The notes below the pieces were generated by a model that saw only the letters and a program-made list of their open reading frames with translations, searched no databases and had not been told where the DNA came from. Positions 13,467-30,665 of a stretch of DNA of 64,000 nt are shown piece after piece. How positions within the stretch are numbered: the first letter of the stretch is position 1; every line of letters begins with the position of its first letter. Both the position numbers and the translations under genes were made by a program. This DNA is from Nitrosopumilaceae archaeon (GTDB lineage Archaea > Thermoproteota > Nitrososphaeria > Nitrososphaerales > Nitrosopumilaceae), in NCBI GenBank assembly GCA_028279545.1, contig JANQNN010000003.1:1-64000 (forward strand), in the 5' to 3' direction.

Positions 13467-13550
13467 GTAGCTATCTTGTAACTATCTCGTAGTGATGGTT
13501 TTCTTCATTACCACAAGTTATATACAAGTTACACACGGATTTACCACATT

Positions 13551-13841: not shown

Positions 13842-13885
13842 TTTTAGGAAGATATAAAATATACTTAATATATTAAATCTATAAT

Positions 13886-14904: not shown

Positions 14905-15020
14905 TTACGAATAAAAATATGTGACTGATTTTATATATTCATTTTGAATTTAGGTATAATTTATGCCTATAATTTATGTGATTAGGTAACAACAAAGAAG
15001 GTATACACCTATACTAATCT

Positions 15021-15200
15021 ATGAATAAAAAGTTTACAGACCTACAAGATATTCTTGTAGAGAAAGTAGTATCAATCAAAATAGAACTACTTCTAAGACT
15101 TCAGAAGCTCGGTCATATGTTTTCAACATATAGTGAAGTAATAGAAGAAATTCTAAATCACTGTGATGCATGTGATCGATTCGTGGAGGACAGAAATTGA
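15021..15200 (+). CDS. 59-residue RHH-like small protein, first gene of HNH mini-operon
   Basis: From ATG at 15021. The segment VVSIKIELLLRLQKLGHMFSTYSEVIEEIL reads as strand-helix-helix, as in CopG/Arc-type DNA-binding proteins, and the tail has two Cys. Its TGA overlaps the next gene's TTG (TTGA, 4-bp overlap), so translation is likely coupled. Upstream (14955-15012) are near-palindromic TAGGTATA/CCTATA elements that could be autoregulatory sites. Confidence 0.55.
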   Translation: MNKKFTDLQDILVEKVVSIKIELLLRLQKLGHMFSTYSEVIEEILNHCDACDRFVEDRN

Positions 15201-15412
15201 TTCTCAAGGAGATTTCTCCTTATTTTTTTGAGAACAAGTTAATAATCTCATTGTCAAGAGATTGGCTGAGATTATTCAAAGAAGTGCCGAAATTCAAAGT
15301 AACACTTGATAAAAGAAATCGTCTAGTGTTACAGTCACAAGAAATACAACAAAGATCATTGAGAGAAAATTCTCTCTCAGAACTAAAAAAAGTTGAGATG
15401 ATACAAAAATGA
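15197..15412 (+). CDS. 71-residue AbrB-like small protein
   Basis: It starts at TTG 15197 and ends with a TGA overlapping the ATG of the HNH gene (ATGA), so it is coupled at both ends. The segment LIISLSRDWLRLFKEVPKFKVTLDKRNRLVLQS has the alternating strand pattern of SpoVT/AbrB or MazE-type swapped-hairpin proteins. The tail is charged. It may be an antitoxin or regulator for the downstream nuclease; this is inference from order only. Confidence 0.5.
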   Translation: MILKEISPYFFENKLIISLSRDWLRLFKEVPKFKVTLDKRNRLVLQSQEIQQRSLRENSLSELKKVEMIQK

Positions 15413-15981
15413 CACAACTATCACAAAAACAGAAAATACAGATAGCAGAACAGCTAACAGAACGTGATGGCGGATACAGATGTTTTTACTGTAAAACACC
15501 ATGTAGCATGAAGAGACGACCTATCATAGAACATCTAAATGATAAAAGATCTGATAATAGACTAGATAATCTAGTTCTATCATGTCAATCATGTAACATC
15601 AAAAAAGCTGCTGATGAAGATTGTGTATATAGTGACATAGCTTTTCTAAAAAGAGAACAGAATGAAAATCAGATTTATGTGAGAGAGAAAATTCTCAACA
15701 GACTCACAAAATCTACAAAAAAAGAGATTCCCACAGAGATAGATATTAACACGAACAACTACAAAGTTGTTCTAGATTTCATTGAATCAAGAGTAGAATC
15801 TTTTGATTCTGTAGAGTACAAAGATGCTCTGAATTCTTGTGTCTATCTATGTAAGAGTAAAACTAGTCATGGCAGTCAGCAATGTGTTAGAAACTACATT
15901 CAAGCTATGACAAGTTCTGTTAGTCCCTATGAGATAATAAAGAGAGACAACAAGAAGATTATCGTGAAAAGAGCTCGATAA
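15409..15981 (+). CDS. HNH endonuclease
   Basis: A 190-residue HNH protein. The zinc-organised core spans residues ~20-65: CFYC, then IIEHLNDKRSDNRLDNLVLSC and CQSCNIKKA, the His-Asn...CxxC HNH pattern. The C-terminal ~120 residues, helical and with a KSKTSHGS segment, are unrecognised. HNH genes are frequent in phages, plasmids, introns and toxin modules. It is the last gene of a three-gene overlapping operon and is followed by the iterated dyads and the integrase gene. Confidence 0.8.
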   Translation: MTQLSQKQKIQIAEQLTERDGGYRCFYCKTPCSMKRRPIIEHLNDKRSDNRLDNLVLSCQSCNIKKAADEDCVYSDIAFLKREQNENQIYVREKILNRLTKSTKKEIPTEIDINTNNYKVVLDFIESRVESFDSVEYKDALNSCVYLCKSKTSHGSQQCVRNYIQAMTSSVSPYEIIKRDNKKIIVKRAR

Positions 15982-16016
15982 TACTCTCTTTCTTTTTTTT
16001 GATAAGATCCTATACT

Positions 16017-16165
16017 ATTGTGACTATCTGTAACAACAGTTGTTACAGATCTCACGTTTTTTTCATACTTTTGTGACTAGATATGACATAATATGTCATA
16101 AATTCTTCAAAATCGTTCACACTTTTGTGACTATCTGCGAAAGGTTCTTTCACAGATCCCACAAA
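16017..16165. repeat. Three iterated TTGTGACTA-dyad units beside the integrase gene
   Basis: TTGTGACTA occurs at about 16018-16026, 16072-16080 and 16125-16133. Each is followed by an inverted repeat: arms 16028-16037/16039-16048 (10 bp, perfect), 16082-16089/16093-16100 (8 bp, perfect) and 16134-16143/16147-16156 (10 bp, one mismatch). Units 1 and 3 extend to a GTGACTATCTG...CAGATCYCAC outer dyad. Arm sequence differs but pairing is kept. Integrase attachment or arm sites, regulator operators, or structured RNA are all possible. Confidence 0.7.
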
Positions 16166-16193
16166 TTCAAGTAAAATTTTCCAAAAATCAGTA

Positions 16194-17309
16194 TTACTTT
16201 ACTAGTTCGGTAGGTGGTTCTATGCTTTTATTCTGAATGTATTGTTTGAGATTCATAAGGCTGTCTTCAAGCTCATTACATTTTACAGTTAGATTTGTAA
16301 TCTCACGTTCAACTTCTTTAAAATCAGAGAATGTCAAATGTGGTTCAGCTCGTAAGTACAGTTCTACCTTAGATTCTTCTGTTAAGTTATAGTACGTATC
16401 CATGTAAAATGAATGACCAATCAATGACTCTGAAAAGTCTCTTCCACTGACGTTTCCTACTATAGTTCTAAAGTATTTTCTAAACCCGTGAAAGTGAATA
16501 GCCTTGTAACCGTTCTCATTTGTTTTGTCTAGCTCTGGTATCTTTGAGACATGATCACGAAGTCCTTTCTGAAGTGTCAATTTTGCAGAATCTACACTAA
16601 ATTCAGATGTTTTTGATTTTCGACCTTTCTTTGTGATTCGACCAAATATGTAAGTATCATTTAGATGAGAATTGTCATTAATCTCAGAGTATTCAAAGTA
16701 TCGTACTAAATAGTCTTTGAGTGACTTTGTAGCTTCAGATGTAATAAAAGTCTCACGTGATTGTCTTGTTTTACTAGTGTTCGCTCTTACAGTAATCTTT
16801 GTTGGTTTATGATCAAAATCAATATCAGATACTTTTAGCTGTACCAACTCACCAATTCTCAAACCGCTAGAACAAGCTACAAGTATTGCCGTTTGGATTT
16901 TTGAACTTGAGTTGTGTAATACTCGTAGGATCATTTCTTTGTCAAGTGGTATCTCTCTAGTCTTGACTAACTTGGGTACGCGTACTGTGTGTTTGAAATC
17001 ATCAGAGTTAATTTTTATCTTAGAATATCTCAAAAAACCTTTGACACCACTAAGATAAGCTCGAATTCCCTTGGGTTTGATGCCAAGTTTATCTAGATAA
17101 ATTATGAATTCTCTGAGATAGTCATACACATCAATTTCTTCAGATCTTATCTGTGAGATTATCTCAAAAAGTGTGTTTTTGAACTTTTTTTGAGTGAATT
17201 TTCGAAGATGATTTATCGATGATCTGTATGTTTGAACTGTCTTTTTACTATGAGATATCACATACACTGAATCTAAGAATCCTGATTCGTAATCTGAGAT
17301 CGAAACCAT
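16194..17309 (-). CDS. Tyrosine recombinase/integrase (XerC/D-type)
   Basis: A 371-residue tyrosine recombinase with a SAM-like core-binding domain (~15-110) and the catalytic domain. Catalytic residues in order are Arg (SSGLRIGEL, ~R151), Lys (TSKTRQSRE, ~K180), HxxR (HGFR, ~H274/R277), His (LIGHSF, ~H299) and Tyr (MDTYYNL, ~306-307). The C-terminus has a ~35-residue coiled coil. The start ATG at 17309 is chosen because a minus-strand TATA box (17328-17337) sits 25 nt upstream. The longer frame to 17393 only reads AT-rich promoter repeats. The gene looks intact; no tRNA is adjacent. Confidence 0.88.
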   Translation of the reverse strand: MVSISDYESGFLDSVYVISHSKKTVQTYRSSINHLRKFTQKKFKNTLFEIISQIRSEEIDVYDYLREFIIYLDKLGIKPKGIRAYLSGVKGFLRYSKIKINSDDFKHTVRVPKLVKTREIPLDKEMILRVLHNSSSKIQTAILVACSSGLRIGELVQLKVSDIDFDHKPTKITVRANTSKTRQSRETFITSEATKSLKDYLVRYFEYSEINDNSHLNDTYIFGRITKKGRKSKTSEFSVDSAKLTLQKGLRDHVSKIPELDKTNENGYKAIHFHGFRKYFRTIVGNVSGRDFSESLIGHSFYMDTYYNLTEESKVELYLRAEPHLTFSDFKEVEREITNLTVKCNELEDSLMNLKQYIQNKSIEPPTELVK

Positions 17310-17327
17310 CCATAATTCCATACCATA

Positions 17328-17337
17328 CTTATATAAT
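17328..17337 (-). promoter_or_regulatory. Integrase TATA box
   Basis: CTTATATAAT on the plus strand (ATTATATAAG on the minus) is centred ~25 nt before the ATG at 17309, supporting a leaderless integrase start and excluding the upstream ATGs. Confidence 0.6.
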
Positions 17338-17344
17338 ATAAATT

Positions 17345-17380
17345 TATGGATTTTATATATAATATGGATTTTATATATAA
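17345..17380 (+). repeat. 18-bp perfect tandem duplication carrying TATA boxes
   Basis: TATGGATTTTATATATAA occurs at 17345-17362 and again at 17363-17380. Each copy holds a TTTATATATAA TATA-like element. The second copy lies ~40 nt before the ATG at 17417, so it is the likely promoter of that gene. The duplication lies between two divergent genes. Confidence 0.75.
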
Positions 17381-17416
17381 TAATAAAAAACATAGAGTTT
17401 CTGACTCTTTTTTAAT

Positions 17417-18286
17417 ATGAAAATACTCTTTTTCTTAGATAAATTTAATAAAGAAATTTCTAATATTTATGACCGGTGTATGAATTTGTCTATAATCCAA
17501 GATCAAGACAATAAAAATGAGAAATGGTTGATTCCACAAGGTTGTGGAGTAGATAAACTCTTTTCAATTTTAACAGGAATAAGAAACAAAAATGGAGATA
17601 ATGAATTTGTGGAAGAAGAAAAAATAAAAAAATCAATAGATCTTTCTGATCCTTTAATTACCTCAGGTTTTGGTTTCTTAAAATCAATTAAATTAATTGA
17701 AAAACAACAGAAAGAAATTAAATTAACCAAAATTGGGGCAGAATTTACCGAAGCTTTTATTCGAGAAGATGAAAATATTTCAAAAATAATTTTACAAATA
17801 ATAAAAGGATCGTATTTGATAGATCTTTTTGATTACTTGAATAATAATAAAGACCTAAAAGTTTCTAAGGTTTTTACATTCATTAAATCCCAAGCAAAAT
17901 TATCAAATTCAACAGACGGAAGATTATTTTCAGATCTTGCTTTTCAAGGAGTAAAGGCAATTATTGGTTTATTTCAGAAGGCAGAATTATTAACTGAAAC
18001 ACAAATCCAAGACTTTAAGAATTACAAAAATAGTACTAAGAAAAAAGATAGCAAACCTATAACAAAAAAGAAAGAAACCAAGAAAGATCGAACCAAAATT
18101 AAGGCTGTTTTATCAAATAAGCCGGAATTAATTCAAGGCTCAAAAGGTATTATCTCGTTATCAAGTGGAATTGATATCCAATTAACCTCTAAAAAAAATG
18201 TAGAATTGGCGATATCCCAATTAAACGACTTAATTAAAGAATTTCAAAATATAGAAAATAATAATGAAGGGGATTCAACAGATTAA
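17417..18286 (+). CDS. Hypothetical protein with wHTH-like segment, possible defence-locus component
   Basis: A 289-residue soluble protein. Residues ~75-110 read as a winged-helix-like segment (LITSGFGFLKSIKLIEKQQKEIKLTKIGAEF), and a second helical block follows at ~115-190. A Lys-rich linker (~195-215, KKKETKKDRTK) leads to a short C-terminal beta/alpha part. The two-block layout is loosely like DUF5343-type proteins of defence islands, but I do not recognise a firm family. It is upstream of, and collinear with, the HEPN-like gene (83-bp gap). Confidence 0.5.
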   Translation: MKILFFLDKFNKEISNIYDRCMNLSIIQDQDNKNEKWLIPQGCGVDKLFSILTGIRNKNGDNEFVEEEKIKKSIDLSDPLITSGFGFLKSIKLIEKQQKEIKLTKIGAEFTEAFIREDENISKIILQIIKGSYLIDLFDYLNNNKDLKVSKVFTFIKSQAKLSNSTDGRLFSDLAFQGVKAIIGLFQKAELLTETQIQDFKNYKNSTKKKDSKPITKKKETKKDRTKIKAVLSNKPELIQGSKGIISLSSGIDIQLTSKKNVELAISQLNDLIKEFQNIENNNEGDSTD

Positions 18287-18369
18287 ATTTGTCTAGCAAT
18301 ATTGAAAAAAATGATATTTTTATTTTTCATCGAAAGTAATATTTTATACCCAATTTATTAAAATAAAAA

Positions 18370-19029
18370 ATGAAACTTGAAGAAATAACTACTCCCACTC
18401 AATTTATTCAGTGGTTGTGGGAAAGCAACAATTATTTTGACACCCACAAAACGGTTTCTCAAATAGAAAAATTGGCTAGTTCTAAAGGATTTACTTTTAG
18501 CTTGCCCGCAATTAGGATGGCATTGGAACGATCTAAATTCATAACAAGAGCTGGAAAACTTGCTAATAGAGTACCTCTTTACAAACAGATTTACCCTGCA
18601 ACAAAAAAGGAGTTTAAAGTCGGAAATCCAAAAAATAAAATTTTAGAATCACTTGGTTTACATAGTCAAATTAAGAAAGTTAGTTCAAGATTATTTTATG
18701 ATGGATACCATACAGAAGCGGTTTTTGCTGCTTTTAAAAAAGTCAACAACATGGTTAAGAAAAAATCCGGTGTAAACAAAGATGGTAAGGATTTAATGCT
18801 TACAGTTTTCTCTGTAAAGTCTCCTATTTTGAAGGTAAATAAAATGAAAACGGATTCTGAAAAAGATGAACAGGAAGGGTACATGCATATTTTTGCTGGG
18901 TCTATGCATGGAATAAGAAATCCAAGGGCACATGAGGATGAAATTAAAGAAGACCCAATGAAAGCTATTGAGTACCTTTGCCTTGCCAGCCTTTTAGCAA
19001 AAACAGTCGATAAAACGAGAAAAACCTAA
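18370..19029 (+). CDS. TIGR02391/Ymh-like HEPN-type protein
   Basis: A 219-residue protein. The C-terminal half has the pattern of the TIGR02391 (Ymh) family: LFYDGYHTEAVFAAFKKVNN, then KDLMLTVFS, GYMHIFAGSMHGIRNPRAHE. The R183-N-P-R-A-H188 motif is an Rx4H, as in the catalytic motif of HEPN ribonuclease domains. The N-terminal ~80 residues are a separate helical or wHTH-like domain. Relatives are often found in defence islands and beside restriction genes, where a role as RNase effector is suspected. Confidence 0.65.
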   Translation: MKLEEITTPTQFIQWLWESNNYFDTHKTVSQIEKLASSKGFTFSLPAIRMALERSKFITRAGKLANRVPLYKQIYPATKKEFKVGNPKNKILESLGLHSQIKKVSSRLFYDGYHTEAVFAAFKKVNNMVKKKSGVNKDGKDLMLTVFSVKSPILKVNKMKTDSEKDEQEGYMHIFAGSMHGIRNPRAHEDEIKEDPMKAIEYLCLASLLAKTVDKTRKT

Positions 19030-19043
19030 ATGGTTATTGGTTT

Positions 19044-19649
19044 TCAATTGTTGTTACTTTCTTCCATTTCTTGATCTTTTGATAGTTTTCTTATATATTC
19101 AAATCCTAAATCCATTCCCTTTCCGGTAACCATATATTTTTTGGAGCTTGAGGATCCTGTCCCTACAATTAATGAGGTTTTTTTCAAGCTTCTAGGTAAA
19201 TGATTTAAATCACCAACCCCAGACTTATCCAAAGACTTTTTCAGTAAAGATGCTTTCATCCATTCCCTTTCCGAAAGAACTCTATAAATTGTTAAAATAA
19301 CTATGCTAAAGATTACATGTTTTTTATTCTCTTTCTCTTTTCTTCTCTTTAAAATTTCGATAATATTTTCATGAATAGAAATAGTTTCTTTGAATTCGCC
19401 AGCTGTAATGTTACTTTTTGAAACAATTTCCTCAAAATCAGTTTTTAGCTCTATGTCTTCACTGTTATTCTTAGATTTTCTTGAAGGAGGTGTAAGTTTT
19501 TTTCCCAATATTTTTTTTTGAGAATTAATATCTGAATCTAGCAAAAAAGAAAAGATTATTTTGAATCCTTCAGTTCTAAAAGGCTCTTTTTCCTCCTGAA
19601 CTATATTTTTTGCAATTTCAAATTTCTTTTTAATATTTTCCTCACTCAT
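19044..19649 (-). CDS. Hypothetical protein with C-terminal winged-helix-like segment
   Basis: A 201-residue, charged protein, convergent with the HEPN-like gene (14 bp apart). The N-terminal 110 residues are helical with low-complexity Lys/Ser/Glu parts. From ~110, VIFSIVILTIYRVLSEREWMKAS then SLDKSGVGDLNHLPRSLKKTS and the wing-like KKYMVTGKGMDLGFEYI look like a winged-helix 'predicted regulator' fold. Family not recognised. Confidence 0.5.
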   Translation of the reverse strand: MSEENIKKKFEIAKNIVQEEKEPFRTEGFKIIFSFLLDSDINSQKKILGKKLTPPSRKSKNNSEDIELKTDFEEIVSKSNITAGEFKETISIHENIIEILKRRKEKENKKHVIFSIVILTIYRVLSEREWMKASLLKKSLDKSGVGDLNHLPRSLKKTSLIVGTGSSSSKKYMVTGKGMDLGFEYIRKLSKDQEMEESNNN

Positions 19650-19989
19650 TTTTACCTCAAATTTTGATCTATCCCATTGTATTTTTATGATATTAGAGTA
19701 TGAAAACTTTCTCTTTTTTTGGAATAAATAATTGATTTAATATTGCCATCAAGATCAATTTTTATTAAAATATCCAAAAAAGTCATTTTTGGATGTATCA
19801 GTGCAGGGATTTACAAATTGGTATGAAATTGGTAAAACTTTTCAGGTATTCAACCTGAAACTGTTTTTGTTTATCTTTTATTTTAATTACACATAACAGA
19901 GAATCTGCAAAATTATCTAACAAATATTATAAAAATTCAAACCAGTCTTAAGAACGAAAACTAAAATCAAAGGTTTAACCATTTACAGT
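19650..19989. other. Intergenic region with two hairpins and a 34-bp repeat copy
   Basis: No convincing ORF. Hairpin A (19772-19780 with 19786-19794, 9 bp, 5-nt loop) and hairpin B (19840-19847 with 19853-19860, 8 bp, 5-nt loop) are perfect; B is followed by CTGTTTTTGTTT, like an intrinsic terminator on the plus strand. The first copy of a 34-bp direct repeat is at 19869-19902. A small RNA ending at hairpin B is possible. Confidence 0.5.
19869..19902 (+). repeat. 34-bp direct repeat, left copy
   Basis: It matches 21414-21447 at 30 of 34 positions, same orientation, including the runs GTTTATCT, AATTACA and ATAACAGAGA. The two copies bracket the three-gene retropepsin/Trypco1-like module. Confidence 0.75.
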
Positions 19990-20268
19990 ATGGTTTCTAA
20001 AAAATTAAAAACAAAAAGCAGTAAGAAAAAAGAAGAAGGGATTCCATTTGCGGATATTAAAACCAAAAAGGTGTATTTGCTCAATAAGAAAGATCTAGAG
20101 GATGAACTAGAAAAAATCTATAGTAAAATCTCTGGTACTCTTTCTAAATTTGAAAAATTGGGAAAATATGAACTGGATGAAATAGAGATTTCACTTGGTG
20201 TGAGTGGTGGAGTAATCGTGTTTAACGTTGAAGGTGGAGTTTCTTTACGTTATAAATACAAAAAGTGA
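19990..20268 (+). CDS. Trypsin-co-occurring-domain (Trypco1)-like protein
   Basis: A 92-residue protein with a Lys-rich start, then a helix (DLEDELEKIYSKISGTLSKFEKLG) and four predicted strands (DEIEISLGVSGGVIVFNVEGGVSLRYKYKK). This has the shape and phrase structure of the Trypco1 domain: helix, 'EVEFGV', a Gly/Ala-rich turn and a final beta-strand pair. In other prokaryotes such domains accompany trypsin-like proteases in conflict systems. It converges on a retropepsin gene 7 bp away. Assignment is by eye. Confidence 0.5.
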   Translation: MVSKKLKTKSSKKKEEGIPFADIKTKKVYLLNKKDLEDELEKIYSKISGTLSKFEKLGKYELDEIEISLGVSGGVIVFNVEGGVSLRYKYKK

Positions 20269-20275
20269 GAAAAAA

Positions 20276-20674
20276 TCAGTTGGGTCTTTTACTAATTTCA
20301 AATTCGGATTTTGGTCCAGCTAGATTTACATATAATTGGTTAAGGAGATCTCTTCCGATTAGTATCACATCAATATCTAAAAGAACAACGGATATCTGAT
20401 TAAACGATATACCAAATTCGGTTAATTCTATATCAACTAGGGCAACTTTTTGTTCTGAATCAATGTTATCTTCATTTGAAGTTGCACTTTCAATAATGGT
20501 TGTTGTATAAGGAATAATCTCCAGAATTTTTTCAAATCTTTTGGGAATAGCTGAGATTTCAGAACCGGTATCTAACAATCCAAGAAATTCTTCTTCCAGT
20601 TCCTTCCAGGAGTTTTTTAATTTGACTTTTACCATTGGAGCTGGTTTATTGGACAGTGTTTGATTATAGTCCAA
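20276..20674 (-). CDS. Retropepsin-like aspartic protease
   Basis: A 132-residue single-domain aspartic protease of clan AA. The catalytic DTGS is at 35-38 in FLGLLDTGSEISAIPK. The hydrophobic-hydrophobic-Gly motif ILIGRDLLNQ (~105-114) completes the retroviral-type fold, and length fits a homodimeric protease. The start is TTG at 20674; an ATG at codon 14 is possible. It follows the HTH-DUF5678 gene by 3 bp, so the pair is one operon. Confidence 0.8.
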   Translation of the reverse strand: MDYNQTLSNKPAPMVKVKLKNSWKELEEEFLGLLDTGSEISAIPKRFEKILEIIPYTTTIIESATSNEDNIDSEQKVALVDIELTEFGISFNQISVVLLDIDVILIGRDLLNQLYVNLAGPKSEFEISKRPN

Positions 20675-20677
20675 TGA

Positions 20678-21301
20678 TTATTTGACACCCAAGATAGATG
20701 GGATTTTAGTTTTTTTCTCTTTTTTTGAAACTAGTCCGATATACATAGGAACATATCCCTTTTTCTCATACACTTGTTTTGCTAAATCAATTTCGTTTGA
20801 ATCTTCTCCAAAAACTTGGTTTTCTACTATTGCAACATACTTTCCTAAATATTTAGTATCTTTCATTAAGGATGGTTTCAATTTTTTAAAAGTCAGTTTA
20901 TTTTGCTCAAACTCATTAAGATTAATTCCAGTAAACATTGAATTTTGTTCTTTTTTTGGTTTTTCAGACTCTTGGTGAATATTTTTTGAAGATGGTGAGT
21001 TTTTTTGTTCACTTGATTGAATGACTATAGAATCATTGATATCAGATTGCAAAATTTGAATTTTTTGTAGTAATTCAGTTCGAAGATCTCTTGCTACCCT
21101 CCTAACAGTTGGTCTAGGCACACCTAAATCATCTACTACTTTTGAATAGATGCTTGGCTTGTGACGGATTTCTTCTTGAATTGAAGAATACAAATATTCT
21201 CTAACTACTTGAGAAAGGTTTTCAATTGTAATAGATTCCTCTGATAATTTCTCGAACAATTCATTATTTTCAAATTTCAATGGTCTTTTTTTTGATTTCA
21301 T
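20678..21301 (-). CDS. HTH plus DUF5678-like protein
   Basis: A 207-residue protein. Residues ~45-75 form a helix-turn-helix (KPSIYSKVVDDLGVPRPTVRRVARDL) and ~85-125 a Ser/Gln/Lys-rich linker. The last ~70 residues match DUF5678-type domains: KYLGKYVAIVENQVFGEDSNEIDLAKQ then GYVPMYIGLVSKKE. DUF5678 proteins commonly sit beside small retropepsins, as here (3-bp spacing). A role as protease substrate, inhibitor or DNA-binding partner is inference. Confidence 0.65.
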   Translation of the reverse strand: MKSKKRPLKFENNELFEKLSEESITIENLSQVVREYLYSSIQEEIRHKPSIYSKVVDDLGVPRPTVRRVARDLRTELLQKIQILQSDINDSIVIQSSEQKNSPSSKNIHQESEKPKKEQNSMFTGINLNEFEQNKLTFKKLKPSLMKDTKYLGKYVAIVENQVFGEDSNEIDLAKQVYEKKGYVPMYIGLVSKKEKKTKIPSILGVK

Positions 21302-21413
21302 ATGAGATGTTTAGTTATTCTTTTTTACATTTAAAAGTGATCGTTGTGAGTATAAGAACAAGGTAGGAGCCTAGTAATGCTATCATATGGGATTATGACT
21401 TTAAAGTAAAATT

Positions 21414-21447
21414 GTTTATCTATAATTCTAATTACATATAACAGAGA
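21414..21447 (+). repeat. 34-bp direct repeat, right copy
   Basis: It is 30/34 identical to 19869-19902 and in the same orientation, in the intergenic space upstream of the HTH-DUF5678 gene. It does not precede any plus-strand gene, so a simple promoter explanation does not cover this copy. Confidence 0.75.
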
Positions 21448-21538
21448 TTAGGAGTCTGTTAGTTTATAATTTGAAAAATCATCTATAGATTAACCAGACC
21501 TTTCTGAAGGTGAACTTGGTATAATTATATTGGAAAAT

Positions 21539-22174
21539 TTAAAATTGTTGAGGCTTCTTACTTCTAATTTTTTTTCTTTTAATAAAATATGCAGACAAGA
21601 TTCCAGAAATTATTATTATTGAAAGTAACAAAATGATTGGAAGATAAAGACCAGTAAATTCTCCTCCTGTAATGACATTTTCTCCTTCTATAGTAATTTG
21701 TCCACCAGGTCCATATGTTAAAGCTTCAGGCAATAATGTGTGAATGTGAAATGTTCCTGCCTTTAATGGATAAAGAGTGATTTTATAATTAATTATTACT
21801 TCATCTTCTGCAAAAGTAATTTCTGGTGGGTTTATCTCTTTGTTAAAATACCAATTGGAATTATGTGAAAAGGCTTTTTTATCTCCATAAAACAAATTGT
21901 GAAAGAAATTTGTCACTGGATCATATCCTCCTTCATAAGTAACAAGAATATCTATAGAAGAATTTAATTCTGATTTGGTTGTTTTAACAAGTTGTCCGGT
22001 AATGATTATAGGATCTTCTACAGTAGTTTTAGAGGAAAAAGATTCATCTTCAATCCTTATTGAACTAGTTTGAATTGGATTGATGGCTGGATGGCCGTAC
22101 GAATTTGTAAGTGGTAAAAAAATTATCGAAGTTAGTAGAATAAGGAATAATAAAGTAGGAAAATTTTTCTTCAT
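21539..22174 (-). CDS. AmoB/PmoB-like copper-domain membrane protein
   Basis: A 211-residue protein from ATG at 22174 (the frame extends to 22216 without a signal peptide). Residues 1-27 are a signal peptide; the likely mature N-terminus is His28, as in PmoB/AmoB. The beta-rich domain carries SIRIEDESF, IIITGQLVKTTKSEL, and KAGTFHIHTLLPEALTYGPGGQITIEGE, which parallel archaeal AmoB in order and spacing. His28, His143 and His145 correspond to the CuB ligands. A C-terminal TM helix (~184-205) and a basic tail follow. amoA, amoC and amoX are absent here. It is the last gene of a three-gene exported-protein operon. Confidence 0.7.
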   Translation of the reverse strand: MKKNFPTLLFLILLTSIIFLPLTNSYGHPAINPIQTSSIRIEDESFSSKTTVEDPIIITGQLVKTTKSELNSSIDILVTYEGGYDPVTNFFHNLFYGDKKAFSHNSNWYFNKEINPPEITFAEDEVIINYKITLYPLKAGTFHIHTLLPEALTYGPGGQITIEGENVITGGEFTGLYLPIILLLSIIIISGILSAYFIKRKKIRSKKPQQF

Positions 22175-22256
22175 TTTTAACACTACAGTAATCTTATCAA
22201 TTAAAGGATTTATCATTTAGCTCATCATTGGGGGTTTTTTTGGAAATATACGCCAT

Positions 22257-24275
22257 TTATTTTTCAATAATTGCACCATCAGCAATCAGAACCCAACTTC
22301 CATCTTTTACTAGAAGATAATCATCAGAAAGATCAACATTCAAGTTAACTGGATTGGGAATTAGCAACCGAGAATCTTGATCTACTGTTATATTACCTGA
22401 AATGGCAACGTCAAATCCGAGAGTACAATCGTTATTTAAATTCCAATTTCCTGGTGAAGGAAGACTGGTGAAACATGGTGTATCATACTTTGCACTTGAT
22501 TTGAATTGATATTGTGTTCCGGTATCACCTATTGGACTTTCCCAGAAAATGTATCGGTTGCTTTCTGCAGGCAATACACAACTCTTTGTAAATGCTGCAG
22601 AATTACATCTTTTAAAATCAACGGTGGGTGTGCCTCCTGAATCAGTTGCATCATAAACCATTTCAATATAGGTATTATCTAAAGTGTTAAAAATATCTCC
22701 TCCTGAATGTCCAACTAAAACCATATTTGTGGCGTACTCCTTCCCTTCAAATGTATCCGATGTAAAATGTTGATTTGAACTAGTCATTGCAAATTCACTA
22801 GTGGTATTCCACAACTCCGTAAAAGCTCCACAACTGCTTAGCAAATCACTCGTACAGGTTCTAAATTTGGAAATTAATTTTACTTTTCCATTGGTTTCTA
22901 ATTTATCATATAGATTTATATCAAATCTTTTTTTCCCATCAAGTCCAATATTAACTGGTTCTATGATATCATCTTCTATATGATAACAAGCATCGTCCGC
23001 AATGTCATATTTCCAGAATCCCAAGCTTACGCTTCCTTGTTCACAAGTGTTTAAGATCCCTGTATCATCGGTATGAAATTCCATCCTTGAGTTTAGATTA
23101 ACCTTATCGACATATGCGCAAGTATAGGTTCCTGATGGCCATGTTGAACATGTGTAAGTGTTATGATTTAGACTATCAGCAACTACAAAAATAATGTTTT
23201 GAACCCATAGATAATTCGTTCCAGTAATTTGGCCACTTAGGAAAGCATTGTGTTGTAATCCAAATCCTTCAGCATCTTGTAGACCCTCGAACCTTGCACC
23301 AAAAATATCAGCTTCTCCTGATGCTTCATTGAAGTTAGAATCAGTATTGTCGACCTCTATTCCTTGTGCTACATTATCCCAATCTCCATAGGCTTCTTGA
23401 AATGGAGAAAAAAGATTTAGTAAAGCTGAGGTCTTTGAAGAGATGTCCGTATTTAGTTCAGAATCTTTAGGTAAAATGGTAATAATTTTGGGTTCACTTA
23501 TCACCCCTGATTGAGTAAATCCAACAACTGTGTATTCTCCAGGTTCTAAAATATGACTAGCTCTATATCTTTTGTACTTATTTTCTCCAATTTCTTCCAT
23601 GGTTTCTTCAACATCATAATATTTTGTAATATCATGTATCATTATTTTTAAATCTCTCTCAGTAACTTTTTCTCCACCTGATCCGGTCTTATAGGTCTCT
23701 ATAGATTTGGAAAATTTAAAACTTGGAGAACTTGGTGATGAGAATAATTTATCAATTAATCCGGGCCTTGACAATTCGAAATTAATGATTTCTTGTTGAG
23801 ATAATTCTTGTGTGATAGAGGGAGATATCTTTATCGAAGTTGTTTCACCATGAAAACCTGTCATACATGTTTTTCTTGCATGAGGATATTTTACATTAAT
23901 CTCATTTTCCTGTAAGTCAATTAAATTTTCATAAGAGGAAATATCTTCATGTGAACCTCTTAAAAAAATAAAATCTAAATATAATTGACCGCAAGGTGAT
24001 GGAAGGGTTGGACTTTTAGTCTTAAATTTATCAATAATAATTTCCTCACCATTGTTTAAACGTACTTCTGAAATAATAGAAATAGGCTCACCCTGTCTGA
24101 ATCGTTCGCCGTTAACATTAATCACAACCTGTTCTATACCTTCATTTCCGGTTTTTGAAGAAGTTATGATATTTGTTGATTCTGAAAATTCTTCTGTTTG
24201 AGAAAAAGAAAGAAGGATAGTACTTGACATTAAAACAAGTCCCAAAACAACACCAAAAATTATTTTAAATTTCAT
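22257..24275 (-). CDS. Exported thermopsin-like (peptidase A5) protein
   Basis: A 672-residue protein with a signal peptide (1-26). The N-terminal ~300 residues are beta-rich and archaeal-specific. From ~310 a thermopsin-like domain is suggested by FGLQHNAFLSGQITGTNYLWVQNIIFVV (~338-362) and later NMVLVGHSGGDIFNTLDNTYIEMVYD, paralleling the 'LQlN..yyWvQNV' and 'elVlgGpg.G' signatures. Several Cys pairs suggest disulfides. The C-terminal ~60 residues form strands ending DGAIIEK. No C-terminal TM is seen. It lies 6 bp from the upstream fibre-like gene and 82 bp from the AmoB-like start. Confidence 0.6.
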   Translation of the reverse strand: MKFKIIFGVVLGLVLMSSTILLSFSQTEEFSESTNIITSSKTGNEGIEQVVINVNGERFRQGEPISIISEVRLNNGEEIIIDKFKTKSPTLPSPCGQLYLDFIFLRGSHEDISSYENLIDLQENEINVKYPHARKTCMTGFHGETTSIKISPSITQELSQQEIINFELSRPGLIDKLFSSPSSPSFKFSKSIETYKTGSGGEKVTERDLKIMIHDITKYYDVEETMEEIGENKYKRYRASHILEPGEYTVVGFTQSGVISEPKIITILPKDSELNTDISSKTSALLNLFSPFQEAYGDWDNVAQGIEVDNTDSNFNEASGEADIFGARFEGLQDAEGFGLQHNAFLSGQITGTNYLWVQNIIFVVADSLNHNTYTCSTWPSGTYTCAYVDKVNLNSRMEFHTDDTGILNTCEQGSVSLGFWKYDIADDACYHIEDDIIEPVNIGLDGKKRFDINLYDKLETNGKVKLISKFRTCTSDLLSSCGAFTELWNTTSEFAMTSSNQHFTSDTFEGKEYATNMVLVGHSGGDIFNTLDNTYIEMVYDATDSGGTPTVDFKRCNSAAFTKSCVLPAESNRYIFWESPIGDTGTQYQFKSSAKYDTPCFTSLPSPGNWNLNNDCTLGFDVAISGNITVDQDSRLLIPNPVNLNVDLSDDYLLVKDGSWVLIADGAIIEK

Positions 24276-24281
24276 TTTTTT

Positions 24282-24821
24282 CTATGAAGATGGACATCCC
24301 GAACCCAAACACAAATCCCCAGTAGAGGTAATCTTTGAATCTGAATCAGAAAGATGAATATTTCCTTTGACTTCTAATTGTTCCGAAGGTGTGTTAGTAC
24401 CAATACCAACATTACCGTTTGATCGTTCTATTGAAACATCAATTCTAAGTTGGTTATTAGCAAAATCCGCTAATTCAAAATTTCCATTTGAACCCGTGGT
24501 GCTTCTTACCAAGTATTTTTGACTGCTATCAGGATCTTCAAATTGAAATGCGATATTTTTGTCATTATTAATTAATCGCATTGTGGTTTGAACACCATCT
24601 CGGGTAAATTGAAAAGCACCGTCTTCTACTACTACATCACCACCATCCACACTAAGATCTCCAAATATTTCAACTGGAACTGTTCCATCGACTTCGTCAA
24701 ATGCATCATCATCAAAGGTAGAAGTTGCCCAAACAGTTCCTGTAGTTATTCCAGCTAGAACAATTAAAAACAGATGATAATGTGTAATCTTCAAATTTTT
24801 CTTCTGTTTTTTTATTAACAT
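24282..24821 (-). CDS. Exported fibre-like surface protein
   Basis: A 179-residue protein with a basic N-terminus and signal/anchor helix (~14-31), then Asp/Gly/Val-rich beta repeats. The C-terminal segment SNGNVGIGTNTPSEQLEVKGNI (~133-154) is the recurrent motif of phage tail-fibre and surface-stalk proteins preceding intramolecular-chaperone-type or spike domains. It ends with CLGSGCPSS. Likely surface-exposed. It heads the operon with the thermopsin-like and AmoB-like genes. Confidence 0.65.
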   Translation of the reverse strand: MLIKKQKKNLKITHYHLFLIVLAGITTGTVWATSTFDDDAFDEVDGTVPVEIFGDLSVDGGDVVVEDGAFQFTRDGVQTTMRLINNDKNIAFQFEDPDSSQKYLVRSTTGSNGNFELADFANNQLRIDVSIERSNGNVGIGTNTPSEQLEVKGNIHLSDSDSKITSTGDLCLGSGCPSS

Positions 24822-24830
24822 GATATATGT

Positions 24831-24853
24831 CTATAACACAAATTTTGTTATAG
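24831..24853 (-). promoter_or_regulatory. Perfect dyad over the exported-protein operon promoter
   Basis: CTATAACA (24831-24838), a 7-nt spacer and TGTTATAG (24846-24853) form a perfect 8-bp inverted repeat. On the minus strand the distal arm (CTATAACA) lies at the TATA position, ~28 nt before the ATG at 24821. A repressor bound here would block TBP. Confidence 0.55.
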
Positions 24854-24919
24854 CCTTATGGTATCTATTTGAGCCAAGAGGTGTCAAACAATATTTAAAA
24901 TAAAATTTTTAAAATAATT

Positions 24920-25468
24920 TTAATAATTATTTAATTGTGGTTGAACAAGTTCAACTTTAAAGACTACAGCAGAGTCTCCTACTTTTGTATCTTTGATTCG
25001 TACCTTTAATGAATCCAAAACTGTTGTAACATACATCGTAAGATAATTTTTCCACCGCAAACCCAACGATGTCTTGAAAACTAATCTGTATTGATCATTT
25101 TTATTTGAATAAGAAAATTGAAACCATCCCCAATGTTCACCTATCAAATTAAAGAAATGCTCTATTACATTGTCTAAATTATAATCATGGTTTAAAATTA
25201 AAAACAAATTTTGAATTACTTTAGGACCATCTTTTACCATTTCATTAAACTCTGATTCATCAACTTTTTCGATTATTTTCTTTAGGGTTTTTTGAGAAAT
25301 TGTGATGTTAGGAATTGTATTTAGATCTAGCTCGCATATAATCACTTTATAAAGAAAAGTTGTGACTAGCGCGTTTAGTGAAAGATTTCTAGTTTCAGCC
25401 TCATTTTGCAAGGTTCCTAAAATGTCAGTTGGTAAACGCAAGGTCACCCTACTGGTACTATTTCTCAT
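24920..25468 (-). CDS. RHH-domain protein with novel C-terminal domain
   Basis: A 182-residue protein from ATG at 25468 (TTG at 25474 alternative). Residues 4-45 form a ribbon-helix-helix domain (SRVTLRLPTDILGTLQNEAETRNLSLNALVTTFL). The ~135-residue C-terminal domain (DGPKVIQNLFLILNHDYN, GWFQFSYSNKNDQYRLVFKTSLGLRWKNYL) is alpha/beta and may be a sensor or dimerisation domain; a few thaumarchaeal proteins share this layout. It may regulate the neighbouring operon through the 24831-24853 dyad; that is inference. Confidence 0.65.
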   Translation of the reverse strand: MRNSTSRVTLRLPTDILGTLQNEAETRNLSLNALVTTFLYKVIICELDLNTIPNITISQKTLKKIIEKVDESEFNEMVKDGPKVIQNLFLILNHDYNLDNVIEHFFNLIGEHWGWFQFSYSNKNDQYRLVFKTSLGLRWKNYLTMYVTTVLDSLKVRIKDTKVGDSAVVFKVELVQPQLNNY

Positions 25469-25474
25469 TCTCAA

Positions 25475-25807
25475 TTATGGAAATTACGCTCAAATCAATA
25501 AAGGGTTACTCATTTTTGATTCGCCAACCTGTCGTAAAAGAAAATTCTTTAATAATTGACTCAGATTGTGCCAAGATAATCCAAAATGAGTCACCTTGTG
25601 TCACTTATGATTCTGTAAAAAGAAATTTTCTGCTAAACTCTTTTTGATATCACTATTCTAAGAATCAAATTGAAATTTTTAATTTCAAATTTTGTAAAGT
25701 CCATCTGTAGATGATTTTCAACAAAATTACATCTAATTAAGATTAGGAAAAAAAGATTTGGTCAACTTATGTAGAATAAATGAAAAGGAAAATTTAGGAC
25801 AAGTACG
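25475..25807. other. Intergenic region, no gene recognised
   Basis: About 330 bp separating the RHH gene promoter from the 3' end of the tyrosinase gene. Short plus-strand frames here have no recognisable content. The only structure is an AT-rich 8-bp hairpin at 25670-25688, a possible terminator region. Confidence 0.4.
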
Positions 25808-26773
25808 TTAATCATCTGGATTATTGTTATCGTATTGATAAATTCCGTTCCATTTTATTACATCTGCAGGTGTTATGTTATTCCAAGGATACATCTTTTC
25901 ATTTAGATTTTGGAATGGTGGAGCGCCACTATTAGGATAAATGAAGTTTGGCTTTAATTGCATCCATATATCCCACAGTTTGTCTACAAAGCAGTGATGT
26001 AACCAAAATACTGGATCATTTGGTGACGTACCGCTTTCCATGTTTCCGCCAACCCACATGTGTACTCGGTTGTGCATAAATGTATAATCACTTGGTGATG
26101 GTGAAACCCAGCCTTCAAGATAATTTCTAAATTGTTTACAATCAGGTAGATTACAATATGGAGGTTCATCAAAATATGGTAGATCTAATACCCATCCTAT
26201 TTCCGCAAGTGTGGGCAATTCACGTGCAAATGGTGATTCTCCAAAACTACGATTTAGATCACCCTTTATTCCTTCCTTTGTAATGGTCGTCCAATTTCCT
26301 TTTCTAAATGGGCCTGTTCTCACAATTCCCGAATTATCCCCATTACCACCAAGAAAATTATTTTGCCATATTACTGAACTTAGGGGATCAGGTTCATCTT
26401 GACCCCAGTTCCAATACGGAAGTGCAAAGTTTTGCTTCAATACAATTCCCAATAATTTCTCAAAAAACATCAAATACGCTCTATGCCAGGGTAAAAATGC
26501 GGGACCTTCATGTGCCAAGCTAGTGCCATTGCCAGAACTTGGGGGCCATTCATATTTTTTGTCAAATACTTCACAATGTTGCAAAACAAGTGCATGGTAT
26601 ACCGTAAAATTACTTAGATCTGAAAACTTTTGTGTTCCATTTTTTAACCACGAATACTCTGAATATTTTTTAATAAAATCTTTGACATATATTTTTCCTA
26701 AAGCATGCACTCCCCGGCTATAATTGGACATTTCATGTGTGACAAGTGAACGAACATTTTTTCTAGTTAACAT
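25808..26773 (-). CDS. Tyrosinase (type-3 copper protein)
   Basis: A 321-residue tyrosinase. The CuA site is seen as His66 (LVLQHCEVF), His88 (LAHEGPAF) and His97 (LPWHRAYLMFFE). CuB is His234 and His238 (FMHNRVHMWVGG) plus His259/His260 (DPVFWLHHCFVDKLW), with the invariant DPVFWLHH segment. There is no signal peptide, so it may be cytosolic. A tyrosinase from Candidatus Nitrosopumilus koreensis has been described, as I recall, so this family exists in marine thaumarchaea. A 115-residue protein is encoded 5 bp upstream. Confidence 0.93.
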   Translation of the reverse strand: MLTRKNVRSLVTHEMSNYSRGVHALGKIYVKDFIKKYSEYSWLKNGTQKFSDLSNFTVYHALVLQHCEVFDKKYEWPPSSGNGTSLAHEGPAFLPWHRAYLMFFEKLLGIVLKQNFALPYWNWGQDEPDPLSSVIWQNNFLGGNGDNSGIVRTGPFRKGNWTTITKEGIKGDLNRSFGESPFARELPTLAEIGWVLDLPYFDEPPYCNLPDCKQFRNYLEGWVSPSPSDYTFMHNRVHMWVGGNMESGTSPNDPVFWLHHCFVDKLWDIWMQLKPNFIYPNSGAPPFQNLNEKMYPWNNITPADVIKWNGIYQYDNNNPDD

Positions 26774-26778
26774 GAAAT

Positions 26779-27126
26779 CTAAATTTTGCCTACAACTACA
26801 TCCTCATCTGCTGTAAGTGTTAAATAAAAAGCACCTGACCCCTGAGCAAGGTGTTTAGCACCAGAATAAGATTTAGTTTTATTCCCACATATTTCTTGAC
26901 CGTCGGAACTATTCCAATTTTGAAATATCCACCAAAGTATTTTTCCATCTTGTTCGATTGTGATACACTTTTTCATTTCATCTTGTCTTCCAACCCACGG
27001 AATTCTAAAACCTGACACCTTTTTTCCGTCATGTGATCCAACTGTATGAGTATTTGAAAATTGATTATCATGGAATGTAGCAGCAAGCATGGAATTATTA
27101 ATCAATTCATCAAAATAATTAACCAC
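26779..27126 (-). CDS. Tyrosinase-associated small protein
   Basis: A 115-residue, beta-rich protein of unrecognised family encoded immediately before the tyrosinase gene. It has clustered His (HDNQF, HTVGSHDGKK) and an internal repeat-like structure ending TADEDVVVGKI. By position it could be a copper-delivering caddie or lid, as MelC1 is in Streptomyces. The GTG at 27126 is the nearest start, but the frame continues upstream for 26 codons (KNSNRGKKGEKAPSVVV) without ATG/GTG/TTG, so the true start may be unusual. Confidence 0.55.
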   Translation of the reverse strand: MVNYFDELINNSMLAATFHDNQFSNTHTVGSHDGKKVSGFRIPWVGRQDEMKKCITIEQDGKILWWIFQNWNSSDGQEICGNKTKSYSGAKHLAQGSGAFYLTLTADEDVVVGKI

Positions 27127-27323
27127 TACAGATGGTGCTTTTTCTCCTTTTTTGCCTCGATTTGAATTTTTTTGTTTTGCCGTGATCGAAATAATAATAA
27201 GAAGTTAATAAACATTTAATTAGATAATTTAATACCTTTTTACTATCATATGAATTATAAATCTACTGTAGTTAAACTTGTAATATTTTGTGATAAATGT
27301 TTGATTTCTGCTCGGGGGAAATT

Positions 27324-27836
27324 ATGATTTTATCTGCTCATCAATCCACAATGGTTGAGCTTCCACCATCCTCAAAACATCTTGTTTTAGATTTAGTAAA
27401 TGGTTCATCTGAAGAAGCAAAAATTTTGGTACAACAGAACCAAAAACCAGATGAAAAAATAATTCCTCCTAACTCTACTCAAACCATAACAATAACTTCA
27501 AAGGTAACGAGTCTTTCAAATATTGGATATGTTGATATTGAAATATTAGAGTCGGGCGTAAAATTACCCGATAATCCGTATGAATTTAAAAAACTTGATG
27601 AGAATCAGACCGCATCATTTCAATGGCCCGGCATGAGTGTAATCAATGTGGAAATTCAAAACAGAACAAATGAAATTGCAGAGTATTCAATGTGGGTATG
27701 TCTAAACTACCCGAAATATTATCAATTAGGAGCAAATGGAACAAACGAATTTACTAAGACTTTTATCTATTCTGGAATTATGGGAATTGAAAACATTACT
27801 GATACTCCAATTTGGTATCGTGCATATCGTACGTGA
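27324..27836 (+). CDS. Hypothetical beta-sandwich protein
   Basis: A 170-residue protein from ATG at 27324, chosen because GGGGGAA (27314-27320) lies just upstream like a Shine-Dalgarno. It is made of alternating strands (HLVLDLVNGSSEEAKILVQQ, QTITITSKVTS, VINVEIQNRTNEIAEYSMWVCL) resembling an Ig-like or jelly-roll fold. No signal peptide and no known family. It is divergent from the tyrosinase pair. Confidence 0.55.
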   Translation: MILSAHQSTMVELPPSSKHLVLDLVNGSSEEAKILVQQNQKPDEKIIPPNSTQTITITSKVTSLSNIGYVDIEILESGVKLPDNPYEFKKLDENQTASFQWPGMSVINVEIQNRTNEIAEYSMWVCLNYPKYYQLGANGTNEFTKTFIYSGIMGIENITDTPIWYRAYRT

Positions 27837-28136
27837 GGCAGATTTCTAAATTAATTTAATTTTATTTTTGGAAATTTTTCTTTAAAAAGTGAAGTTTAAA
27901 TTTTCTAAACCGAAATTTTTATTCATATTTTCTTCTACTAAAATAATTTGAAATAGTTCCAATAGTGGAGTTTTTCAGATAGAGGGGAGAGATCAATCTA
28001 CATAAAATACTTTCAAACTTGAATTTAGGAGAAATTGAAGATAAAGTTTTGACTATATGTGCCTGATTTGAATTAAATTGTAACAAAAAAGAGAATTCAA
28101 AAAATCCTTAAAATATTCATAAATTCATAACAAAGA
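27837..28136. other. Intergenic region with promoter of the propeller gene
   Basis: No ORF. A TATA-like CTTAAAATAT at 28107-28116 lies ~26 nt before the ATG at 28137. Nothing else stands out. Confidence 0.4.
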
Positions 28137-30665
28137 ATGGGCGGTAAGATGAATAGAATTTTTACCATTACAATAATCTTAGTAGTATCTGGTTTACTCA
28201 TTCCAATTTCAATTCCGCAGGCACATGCTGGTGAAGGCGATTTCATTGTGGTTGATAGCGTTGGTGTTTTACTAAGGATGACTCCTAATGGAGCAACATC
28301 AATTATTGATGTTATTAATCCTAATCTTGGAACTCCGCGTTATGTAACTATTGACTCTGCTGGTGATTTTATAGTAACGTCTTCTTCAAATCTATTTAGA
28401 ATAACAACTGACGGTGAATTATCAATAATAGCTAATATTTCCTCACAGGGAATTGCAATTGACGCTGATGGAAATTATATTACGGTTAAAGGCAATTCGC
28501 TTGTCAAAATAACACCTGCTGGGGAAGTTTCAAACATTGTAACAGGAGGTCTAGGAAATCCAAAAGATGTTGTAGTTGATTCATTTGGTGATTTTATTTT
28601 GACTGGTACTAATGGTAACCTACGAAAAGTAACTCCCATGGGAGAAGTATCCACAATTGCTGGTTTTGATGATGGATTGATACGCCTTTTTGGTGTTGAA
28701 ATTGATTCTGATGGTGATTTTATAGTGATTAACACAACAGGCGAATTACAAAAAGTAACTCCTTCTGGGACGGTAACAACTATTGCTAATATCGATATAA
28801 GTTCTGGAGCTACCATAGATGTTGCCATTGACTCTAACGGTGATTTCATAGTTCCCCAAATTGGAGGAAAAATAATCAAGGTAACGCCAACTGGAGAAAT
28901 TTCAACAATCATTCAAAGTGGGTTTGATTCTATTTGGAGTATTGCAATAGAGCCTAAAAATCAAATCGTTACAGAAGAAGGGGATTTTATAGTGGTTGAT
29001 AACTCTGGAAATCTTTTACACGTAAAACAAAGTGGGGCAGTTGAAACTATTGCAAAAAATCTTGCAAATCCATTTGATGTTGCAATTGACTCTGCTGGTG
29101 ATTTCATAGTTACTGGTAACTTAGGAGAATTGCTAAAAGTGACCGCAGATGGAGACGTATCTACTATTGCTAATAACGGACTTGGTTTTCCCTCAGGTGT
29201 TGTCATTGATTCAGATGGTGATTTTATTTTGGCTTCAAGTGGAAGTGTTTTACGAGTAACTCCAAATGGAATAGTATCAACTATTGCAAGTAGTGGTCTT
29301 GGAACTTTGAATGACATTGTTATTGACTCTAGTGGAGATTTCATAGTTACTGATCTTTCTGGCAAACTACTAAGAATAACTCCAGATGGGGATGTATCGA
29401 CTATTGCAATCAATCTTGGAAATCCAGCTGGTGTTGCCATTGACTCAAATGGTGACTTTATTGTGATTGATGCCAATGGGAGACTGCTAAAAGTTAGTCC
29501 AGATGGAACAGTAACTACCATAAAAAACCCTTTTGGAAATGTCTTTGGTATTGCTATTGACTCAAATGGGGATTATATTATAACTTCGCTCCATGGTTTC
29601 TTGTTTAGGGTACCTCCAAACGCACCTTCATCAGGCATTGCTATTAATTTAGAAGATCCACTTTCCGTTGCAATTGTCCCACCTAAACAATCCATAAAAG
29701 ATGTAGGGGGTTCTTCTGCAAAATCCTATTTGAACAAACCAACCTTTGGATTATCTCACGCTACTCATCAAATTTTAGTTGAAAACGGTTTTACAGTAAA
29801 TGGCAATTCGTTTTCAATTACAGATAACTGGCACACAGACTTTGAAAAACAGACAATTCATGTTGGAGAGTCTAACACCTTTTCTGCAAAATCCTATGCT
29901 CCCTTTGGATTACATCGTATGGAGTTTATGTTTGGAATCCCCGAAGTTGGAAAAGCACATGAATCAGAAGCAGTCGTTGAGGTATGGCTCAATAGAAATG
30001 GTGCTATCGAAAATATTGTGTTAAACCAAAAAGACCATCTAATTGATTCAGAATCATTATCAGCGCAAGCTGAAATGACAGAATGCACCAAAAACTCTAT
30101 AGAGAAAAATTGTAATTTAGTAAGTATTTTTGTATCATTTAATGAAGCTCCATTAGAAGAGGTCTTTGCATTACAGGGAGTTGATTTTACAAGGAGAAAC
30201 CATATCACATATCTCAATGAAGGTCTTTTAGTTCAAGGTGAATCATTAAACTTGTCAAAAACTGATCTTTTTGCTTCTGGTGACAAAGGAGTGGGATTAG
30301 TAGAGTTGACGTTAATTGATAAGAGAAATAACATATGGGTTGATGATTCTGGAAATAAATATAACAAAAATTCCTTTGGTACATTTTTTAAAACGACAAC
30401 AAATCACCTTGAGAGAGATGATCCTTTAGTTAAAGTATTGACTAGACAAAATTCTAATTTTTCTAAAATTATTTCATATGAGCAAAGCCGAGCAATTCAC
30501 GTGTTTAATGGAACAACAATACAATCTGAGATACCAGATAGTTTTGCCTATGTTTTTCCAAAAACAAATGAAAGAATTTCAGATGAGATGAAATCCCAGA
30601 TGATTGAGCAAGAAAAAATTGCAAAACAATTACTAAAAGAATCCACCTTGCAGGCTAGATGGTGA
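28137..30665 (+). CDS. Large exported beta-propeller protein
   Basis: An 842-residue protein. A signal peptide (~5-27, ending AHA) precedes about 13 repeats of ~36 residues with the signature IDSxGDFIV...LLKVTPxGxVSTI, an NHL/SMP-30-like propeller forming two domains (~30-265 and ~280-520). The C-terminal ~300 residues are a thaumarchaeal-type domain (FGLSHATHQILVENGFTVNG, FGIPEVGKAHESEAVVEVWL). No TM or PEFG-CTERM is seen, so it is probably secreted or wall-associated. ATG at 28137 fits the TATA spacing; ATG at 28149 is also possible. Confidence 0.75.
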   Translation: MGGKMNRIFTITIILVVSGLLIPISIPQAHAGEGDFIVVDSVGVLLRMTPNGATSIIDVINPNLGTPRYVTIDSAGDFIVTSSSNLFRITTDGELSIIANISSQGIAIDADGNYITVKGNSLVKITPAGEVSNIVTGGLGNPKDVVVDSFGDFILTGTNGNLRKVTPMGEVSTIAGFDDGLIRLFGVEIDSDGDFIVINTTGELQKVTPSGTVTTIANIDISSGATIDVAIDSNGDFIVPQIGGKIIKVTPTGEISTIIQSGFDSIWSIAIEPKNQIVTEEGDFIVVDNSGNLLHVKQSGAVETIAKNLANPFDVAIDSAGDFIVTGNLGELLKVTADGDVSTIANNGLGFPSGVVIDSDGDFILASSGSVLRVTPNGIVSTIASSGLGTLNDIVIDSSGDFIVTDLSGKLLRITPDGDVSTIAINLGNPAGVAIDSNGDFIVIDANGRLLKVSPDGTVTTIKNPFGNVFGIAIDSNGDYIITSLHGFLFRVPPNAPSSGIAINLEDPLSVAIVPPKQSIKDVGGSSAKSYLNKPTFGLSHATHQILVENGFTVNGNSFSITDNWHTDFEKQTIHVGESNTFSAKSYAPFGLHRMEFMFGIPEVGKAHESEAVVEVWLNRNGAIENIVLNQKDHLIDSESLSAQAEMTECTKNSIEKNCNLVSIFVSFNEAPLEEVFALQGVDFTRRNHITYLNEGLLVQGESLNLSKTDLFASGDKGVGLVELTLIDKRNNIWVDDSGNKYNKNSFGTFFKTTTNHLERDDPLVKVLTRQNSNFSKIISYEQSRAIHVFNGTTIQSEIPDSFAYVFPKTNERISDEMKSQMIEQEKIAKQLLKESTLQARW

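Follow-up and report, generated by a model that had tools for sequence, protein, structure and literature searches.

Ammonia-oxidizing archaea (AOA) depend heavily on copper, and the route by which copper is supplied to them is poorly known. To our knowledge, the structure of archaeal ammonia monooxygenase (AMO) is unsolved apart from an isolated AmoB domain, and the PmoB/AmoB domain has so far been treated only as a part of the enzyme. PmoB (3rgb) is composed of two cupredoxin domains joined by two transmembrane (TM) helices, and has a CuB-type N-terminal histidine and an HxH motif formed by His137 and His139. Archaeal AmoB, represented by 4o65 of Ca. Nitrosocaldus, contains a signal peptide, an N-terminal histidine, an RIED(E)xF motif, a single cupredoxin-type domain, HxH and GPGQT...VEGE motifs, and one C-terminal TM helix. 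Besides LPMOs, the proteins reported to have a histidine brace include PmoB and the copper-transport proteins CopC and PmoF (PMC9131454). Most soil AOA have single copies of amoA and amoB, and extra copies of amoC (PMC10030591).

The AmoB-like protein described here is encoded in a 64-kb stretch of DNA from a Nitrosopumilaceae archaeon (the window). According to its sequence and AF2 model, the window protein consists of one domain and one C-terminal TM helix within 211 residues. It shares all the elements listed above with archaeal AmoB, both 4o65 and the AmoB of its own genome, and its first-ranked fold match is AmoB. However, the aligned identity is 23%, the window protein contains an insert of about 25 residues and a different TM helix followed by a basic tail, and in the alignment it lacks the AmoB-type TM segment IPYTNIAYQ...ATRPWQVI. 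Its gene is located outside the amo cluster, and the protein falls on a separate branch of the tree and has no match to Pfam PF04744 at E-values up to 10. The CuB-type N-terminal histidine and the HxH motif aligned to His137 and His139 are common to the window protein and PmoB, which however has the second domain and second TM helix; no pmoA or pmoC adjoins the window gene. With CopC and PmoF, the window protein would have in common an N-terminal histidine brace on a secreted β domain; a sequence relation to these two proteins was looked for and none was found.

Structure and homology of the AmoB-like protein

The motifs of the window protein follow the order signal peptide, His28, RIEDESF, β-rich domain, KAGTFHIHT, YGPGGQITIEGE, TM helix, and basic tail (Table 1). 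The layout given in the original prediction, from the signal peptide and N-terminal histidine through the β-rich domain and HxH to a single C-terminal TM helix, is borne out, as are the positions of His28, His143, and His145 in the open reading frame and alignments. The AF2 model has a mean pLDDT of 79.9 and predicts helices at residues 5–19 (signal peptide) and 170–205 (TM helix). The positions of the histidines would fit a brace formed by an N-terminal His28 and the HxH motif; the model confidence is below 50 at residues 20–35, the region holding His28.

Table 1 Positions in the window of the AmoB-like gene, its parts, its partner gene, and the island.
Feature	Position	Strand	Basis or remark
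AmoB-like gene, 211 aa	22174-21539	minus	ORF intact from ATG 22174; homology searches
Alternative start, in-frame ATG upstream	22216	minus	+14 residues, giving 225 aa
Signal peptide (residues 1-27), with NSYG preceding His28	22094..22174	minus	sequence; cleavage predicted
His28 codon, predicted mature N-terminus	22091..22093	minus	aligns with AmoB N-terminal His
His143-Ile-His145, CuB-type HxH	21740..21748	minus	aligns with PmoB 3rgb HVH 137-139 and AmoB HxH
Mid-domain insert, ~25 aa	21863..21937, approximate	minus	alignments; two-piece AmoB match
C-terminal TM helix, then basic tail KRKKIRSKK	21575..21649	minus	sequence and AF2 helix 170-205
Partner gene, 672-aa secreted protein	22257..24275	minus	40-82 bp upstream of AmoB-like start
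Genomic island with AmoB-like gene, ~22.5 kb	12900..35430	.	flanking core genes, 12-bp repeat
12-bp direct repeat ATTTATTTAGAT at island ends	12900-12911 and 35419-35430	.	sequence
Tyrosine recombinase, phage integrase family, on island	16194..17393	minus	PF00589 E=6e-15

The likeness to AmoB claimed in the original prediction is well above chance when measured by phmmer, a paralogue profile, and Foldseek. The only phmmer match of the window protein below 1e-3 among 177,635 PDB sequences is archaeal AmoB 4o65 (E=1e-5). When the search is made with a profile that contains paralogues but no AmoB row, 4o65 is matched at E=6.9e-14 and chains of PmoB, 3rgb among them, at 3.6e-7. In the Nitrosopumilaceae genomes, the match of this profile to AmoB is split into two pieces because of the mid-domain insert of the AmoB-like proteins, which the alignments show to be typical of their branch and absent from AmoB. 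The profile alignment places the AmoB-like YHIHT on WHVHT of PmoB, that is, on His137 and His139, and His28 aligns with the mature N-terminal histidine of the AmoB from the same genome. In both proteins, the mature histidine and IRIED are spaced 11 residues apart. The earlier assignment of the three histidines to the CuB ligands of PmoB is thus upheld by alignment with AmoB and PmoB. A Foldseek comparison of the AF2 model ranks 4o65 first (E=4e-7) and 9cl6, a bacterial AMO B subunit, second, which rules out an unrelated fold. L039, a more typical AmoB-like member, and the AmoB of the window's own genome match each other at 7.5e-25. The window protein is almost certainly a paralogue of AmoB.

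As the original prediction stated, amoA, amoC, and amoX are absent from the window; a complete, separate amo cluster (amoB, amoC, amoX, and amoA) is present on contig C26 of the same genome. Canonical AmoB has a match in 196 of 250 Nitrosopumilaceae genomes, nearly always as a single copy. Since its own genome has an ordinary amo cluster, the window gene is an addition and not a displaced amoB. No amo genes were seen near AmoB-like copies at any locus read. An alternative oxidation complex, one of the roles proposed earlier, is unlikely because an AmoA or AmoC partner gene was found at none of these loci. The window protein is derived from AmoB, but is not AmoB, and is most likely no subunit of AMO. 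The reading as a diverged paralogue with a new role is supported by the domain and fold, the three histidines, the separate amo cluster, and the position outside AmoB in the tree.

Distribution and phylogeny of the AmoB-like family

Searches with the window protein and the paralogue profile identify AmoB-like genes in about eight of the 250 Nitrosopumilaceae genomes: the window's own genome G000 (two copies), G008, G043, G117, G149 (several), G174 (three), G176, and G175 with a secreted variant. An alignment-based scan of the genome contigs located ten loci; a single-sequence scan gave zero matches. In an order-wide search, the matches listed belong to four family codes only. Outside the Nitrosopumilaceae, the carriers are L113, L156 in G324, and broken copies in G322 and G300 among the Nitrososphaeraceae, and G251 and G404, whose versions are ligand-poor. 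Relatives with the histidine triad have three C-terminal architectures: a single TM helix, a multi-helix membrane fusion, and a secreted form without a TM helix. Phage and plasmid records gave no match and IMG/VR no relative, so that carriage by viruses is unsupported.

The AmoB-like proteins branch apart from the AmoB proteins of Nitrosopumilaceae, Nitrososphaeraceae, G251, and Nitrosocaldus with a support of 98/98, in a tree that has long branches and no outgroup. The simplest reading of the tree is that the AmoB-like protein is an old paralogue, which goes back to the split of the AOA families or further. It is also possible that its distribution reflects transfer between families, which may have taken place instead. 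A second, younger duplication within Nitrosopumilaceae AmoB (L041, L042, and L164; 100/100) has kept all three histidines. Searches of the literature outside subscription journals gave no account of AmoB paralogues separate from amo clusters, and the AmoB-like proteins are apparently a separate, old, and undescribed family.

The Nitrososphaeraceae proteins L113:9965-11131 and L156:1477-2559 (360–388 residues) are composed of an AmoB-like domain with all three histidines and a C-terminal membrane domain of approximately four further helices. These fusions recall CopC–CopD fusions; the fused membrane domain has no CopD match in Pfam, and its AF2 model has a pLDDT of only 45. The G322 copy contains a stop codon immediately before the histidine, and the G300 copy is frameshifted. 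The second copy in the window's own genome (G000:C13:48757-49347; L007:9258-9848) belongs to a ligand-poor subclade, and its HxH reads NIR. Its signal peptide is in another frame, so that the copy looks decayed, and a serpin gene as well as a restriction system lie next to it.

The genomic island and the putative partner gene

The riboflavin synthase (12288-12872) and STT3 (35454-37571) genes are adjacent in the sister genomes G008, G007, G001, G004, and G005. In the window they are separated by 22.6 kb, and the mobile island located between them is absent from all five sister genomes. The empty site in G008 contains a single, closely matching copy of the repeat, ATTTATTTAGAA, in the expected place. 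The AmoB-like gene is accessory DNA here, since it was inserted between core genes that adjoin in sister genomes. The ends of the island are less certain than the insertion itself because the repeat is short and A+T-rich.

The island also encodes a tyrosinase-family (type-3 copper) protein without an obvious signal peptide (25808-26773), with a small gene before it (26779-27126). Tyrosinase is present in 11 of the 250 family genomes, and three of those 11 also have AmoB-like genes. The tyrosinase, positioned 3.6 kb upstream, was considered as a partner of the AmoB-like protein and rejected, as the two genes were seen close to each other only here. A protein with a retroviral-type aspartyl protease domain (PF00077, E=1.4e-6) is encoded just downstream of the AmoB-like gene (20276-20674).

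The 672-residue protein encoded upstream of the AmoB-like gene has no match in Pfam or the PDB. For the neighbour that the original prediction called thermopsin-like, Pfam gives no support and the PDB no match. Among the 250 Nitrosopumilaceae genomes, the full-length partner gene is found only in the window's own genome. G251, which belongs to another family, encodes at L172 a 651-residue homologue (39% identity over 612 residues), whose gene precedes an AmoB-like gene by 85 bp, both being read in the same direction. That a gene this rare holds the same position in two families suggests a functional pair. As this synteny is one independent case, co-transfer by chance is possible. The G251 AmoB-like protein of the pair has none of the three ligand histidines, which argues that the common function of the pair is not simply copper transfer.

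Copper ligands, possible roles, and related genes

Ligand conservation was scored by eye in alignments of 21 relatives. The conservation of His28, His143, and His145 implied by the original prediction holds for 15 of them, which keep the N-terminal histidine and both histidines of the HxH motif, but does not extend to one subclade and two distantly related members. In this subclade, formed by L032, L033, and L040 (copies from G117 and G149) together with the C13 copy, the N-terminal histidine has been lost along with one or both histidines of the HxH motif. L158 lacks all three, and in L151 one histidine of the HxH motif remains. The losses in the subclade and in G251 indicate that copper is not essential to every AmoB-like member. 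In close pairs of relatives, dN/dS is 0.15–0.25 for histidine-bearing proteins and 0.30 for one pair without the histidines, the window gene itself having no relative close enough for the comparison. Since the values point to purifying selection in both kinds of pairs, AmoB-like proteins are maintained with or without the ligands. From this mixed conservation and dN/dS, we judge that the window protein probably binds copper, and only tentatively suggest that copper handling may be its biological role.

The best explanation as a whole, on which we are evenly divided between belief and doubt, is that the window protein is a module of AmoB origin that binds copper through a histidine brace, is anchored in the membrane, and has taken on an extracytoplasmic role. 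As read from the sequence and the model, the protein would be exported, removal of the signal peptide would expose His28 as the N-terminal residue, and the β domain would be held outside the membrane by the C-terminal helix. The ligand alignment suggests that the amine and imidazole of His28, together with His143 and His145, would hold one copper ion in a histidine brace of the kind present at the PmoB CuB site. Most likely, the protein would bind copper outside the cytoplasm in order to accept or donate it, or would be a copper-stabilised binding module. The AmoB-like protein would act with the secreted 672-residue partner and would be spread by genomic islands.

The neighbours of AmoB-like copies are genes for secreted proteins, serpins, a matrixin-like protease, and restriction systems; copper transporter or copper chaperone families were recognised beside none of the copies, which counts against the best explanation. 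A possible, if somewhat doubtful, reading is that the window protein is a structural or binding β-sandwich in a secreted arsenal, serving adhesion, interaction, or protease/inhibitor assembly, with an inherited and optional copper site. The location of copies within co-directional arrays of secreted genes, some beside a serpin or the matrixin-like protease, is consistent with such a protein, as are the loss of ligands in several branches while dN/dS remains low and the ligand-free G251 copy in a conserved gene pair. However, the retention of three histidines by the 15 relatives, despite long divergence and changed architectures, is unexpected for a useless site. It is improbable that the gene is a duplicate on a mobile island that decays or drifts neutrally and serves no selected function: the patchy distribution, the displaced signal peptide of the C13 copy, and the broken G322 and G300 copies would fit it, but the window copy is intact with all its motifs, the histidine-bearing close pairs elsewhere are under constraint (dN/dS given above), and the family is as old as the AOA family split or older, or was transferred between families. 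The window protein is very unlikely to be an alternative B subunit swapped into AMO in some condition, as proposed for the extra AmoC copies known in AOA (PMC10030591), since, although it has the same domain as AmoB and the younger AmoB duplicates L041, L042, and L164 keep an AmoB-like TM start, it lacks the YTNIAYQ...ATRPWQVI segment, contains the mid-domain insert, and is placed apart from AmoB by the tree, and none of the copies was found adjoining amoA or amoC.

If the window protein is the repurposed copper-binding module, the CuB site could be studied in isolation in a free-standing protein that is related to the AmoB copper domain and works with neither AmoA nor AmoC, and such a protein would show whether the site can be used to handle copper instead of catalysing a reaction. 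Here the PmoB/AmoB domain behaves as a reusable module, for which the ligand-less subclade provides a natural control, and part of an enzyme central to the nitrogen cycle seems to have taken on a different task at the surface of the cell. We speculate, while considering it rather unlikely in its entirety, that AOA hold an old, widely lost, AmoB-derived family of histidine-brace proteins for extracellular copper, in tail-anchored, secreted, and membrane-fused forms, which is spread by islands with a dedicated secreted partner and was reinvented at least once more from AmoB.

Other amo-like pieces occur in membrane and secreted proteins. The small membrane proteins L038:5697-6080, L193, L195, and L196 contain an AmoA-like loop, PTLPPHMTPIEPQVGKF, between helices (PF12942, E=1.3e-7), which gives the impression that part of AmoA was inserted into them. 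They are found in some of the genomes bearing AmoB-like genes, and have the loopless relatives L199 and L202. Two secreted proteins of G149 (L167:1396-2064 and L168:1048-1701) contain only the AmoB N-terminal motif (RFIRIDDEAFSHQSLKTGE and GFIRIDDPSFVRQNLQTGE) before a C-terminal TM helix, which suggests that pieces of amo genes may have been shuffled among surface proteins. A few Nitrosopumilus genomes contain long arrays of short genes that run in one direction (L036, L037, L038, L041, L042, and L043) and encode secreted proteins starting with MKTRLLII...; many of these genes have overlapping starts and stops, and AmoB-like genes are located inside the arrays.
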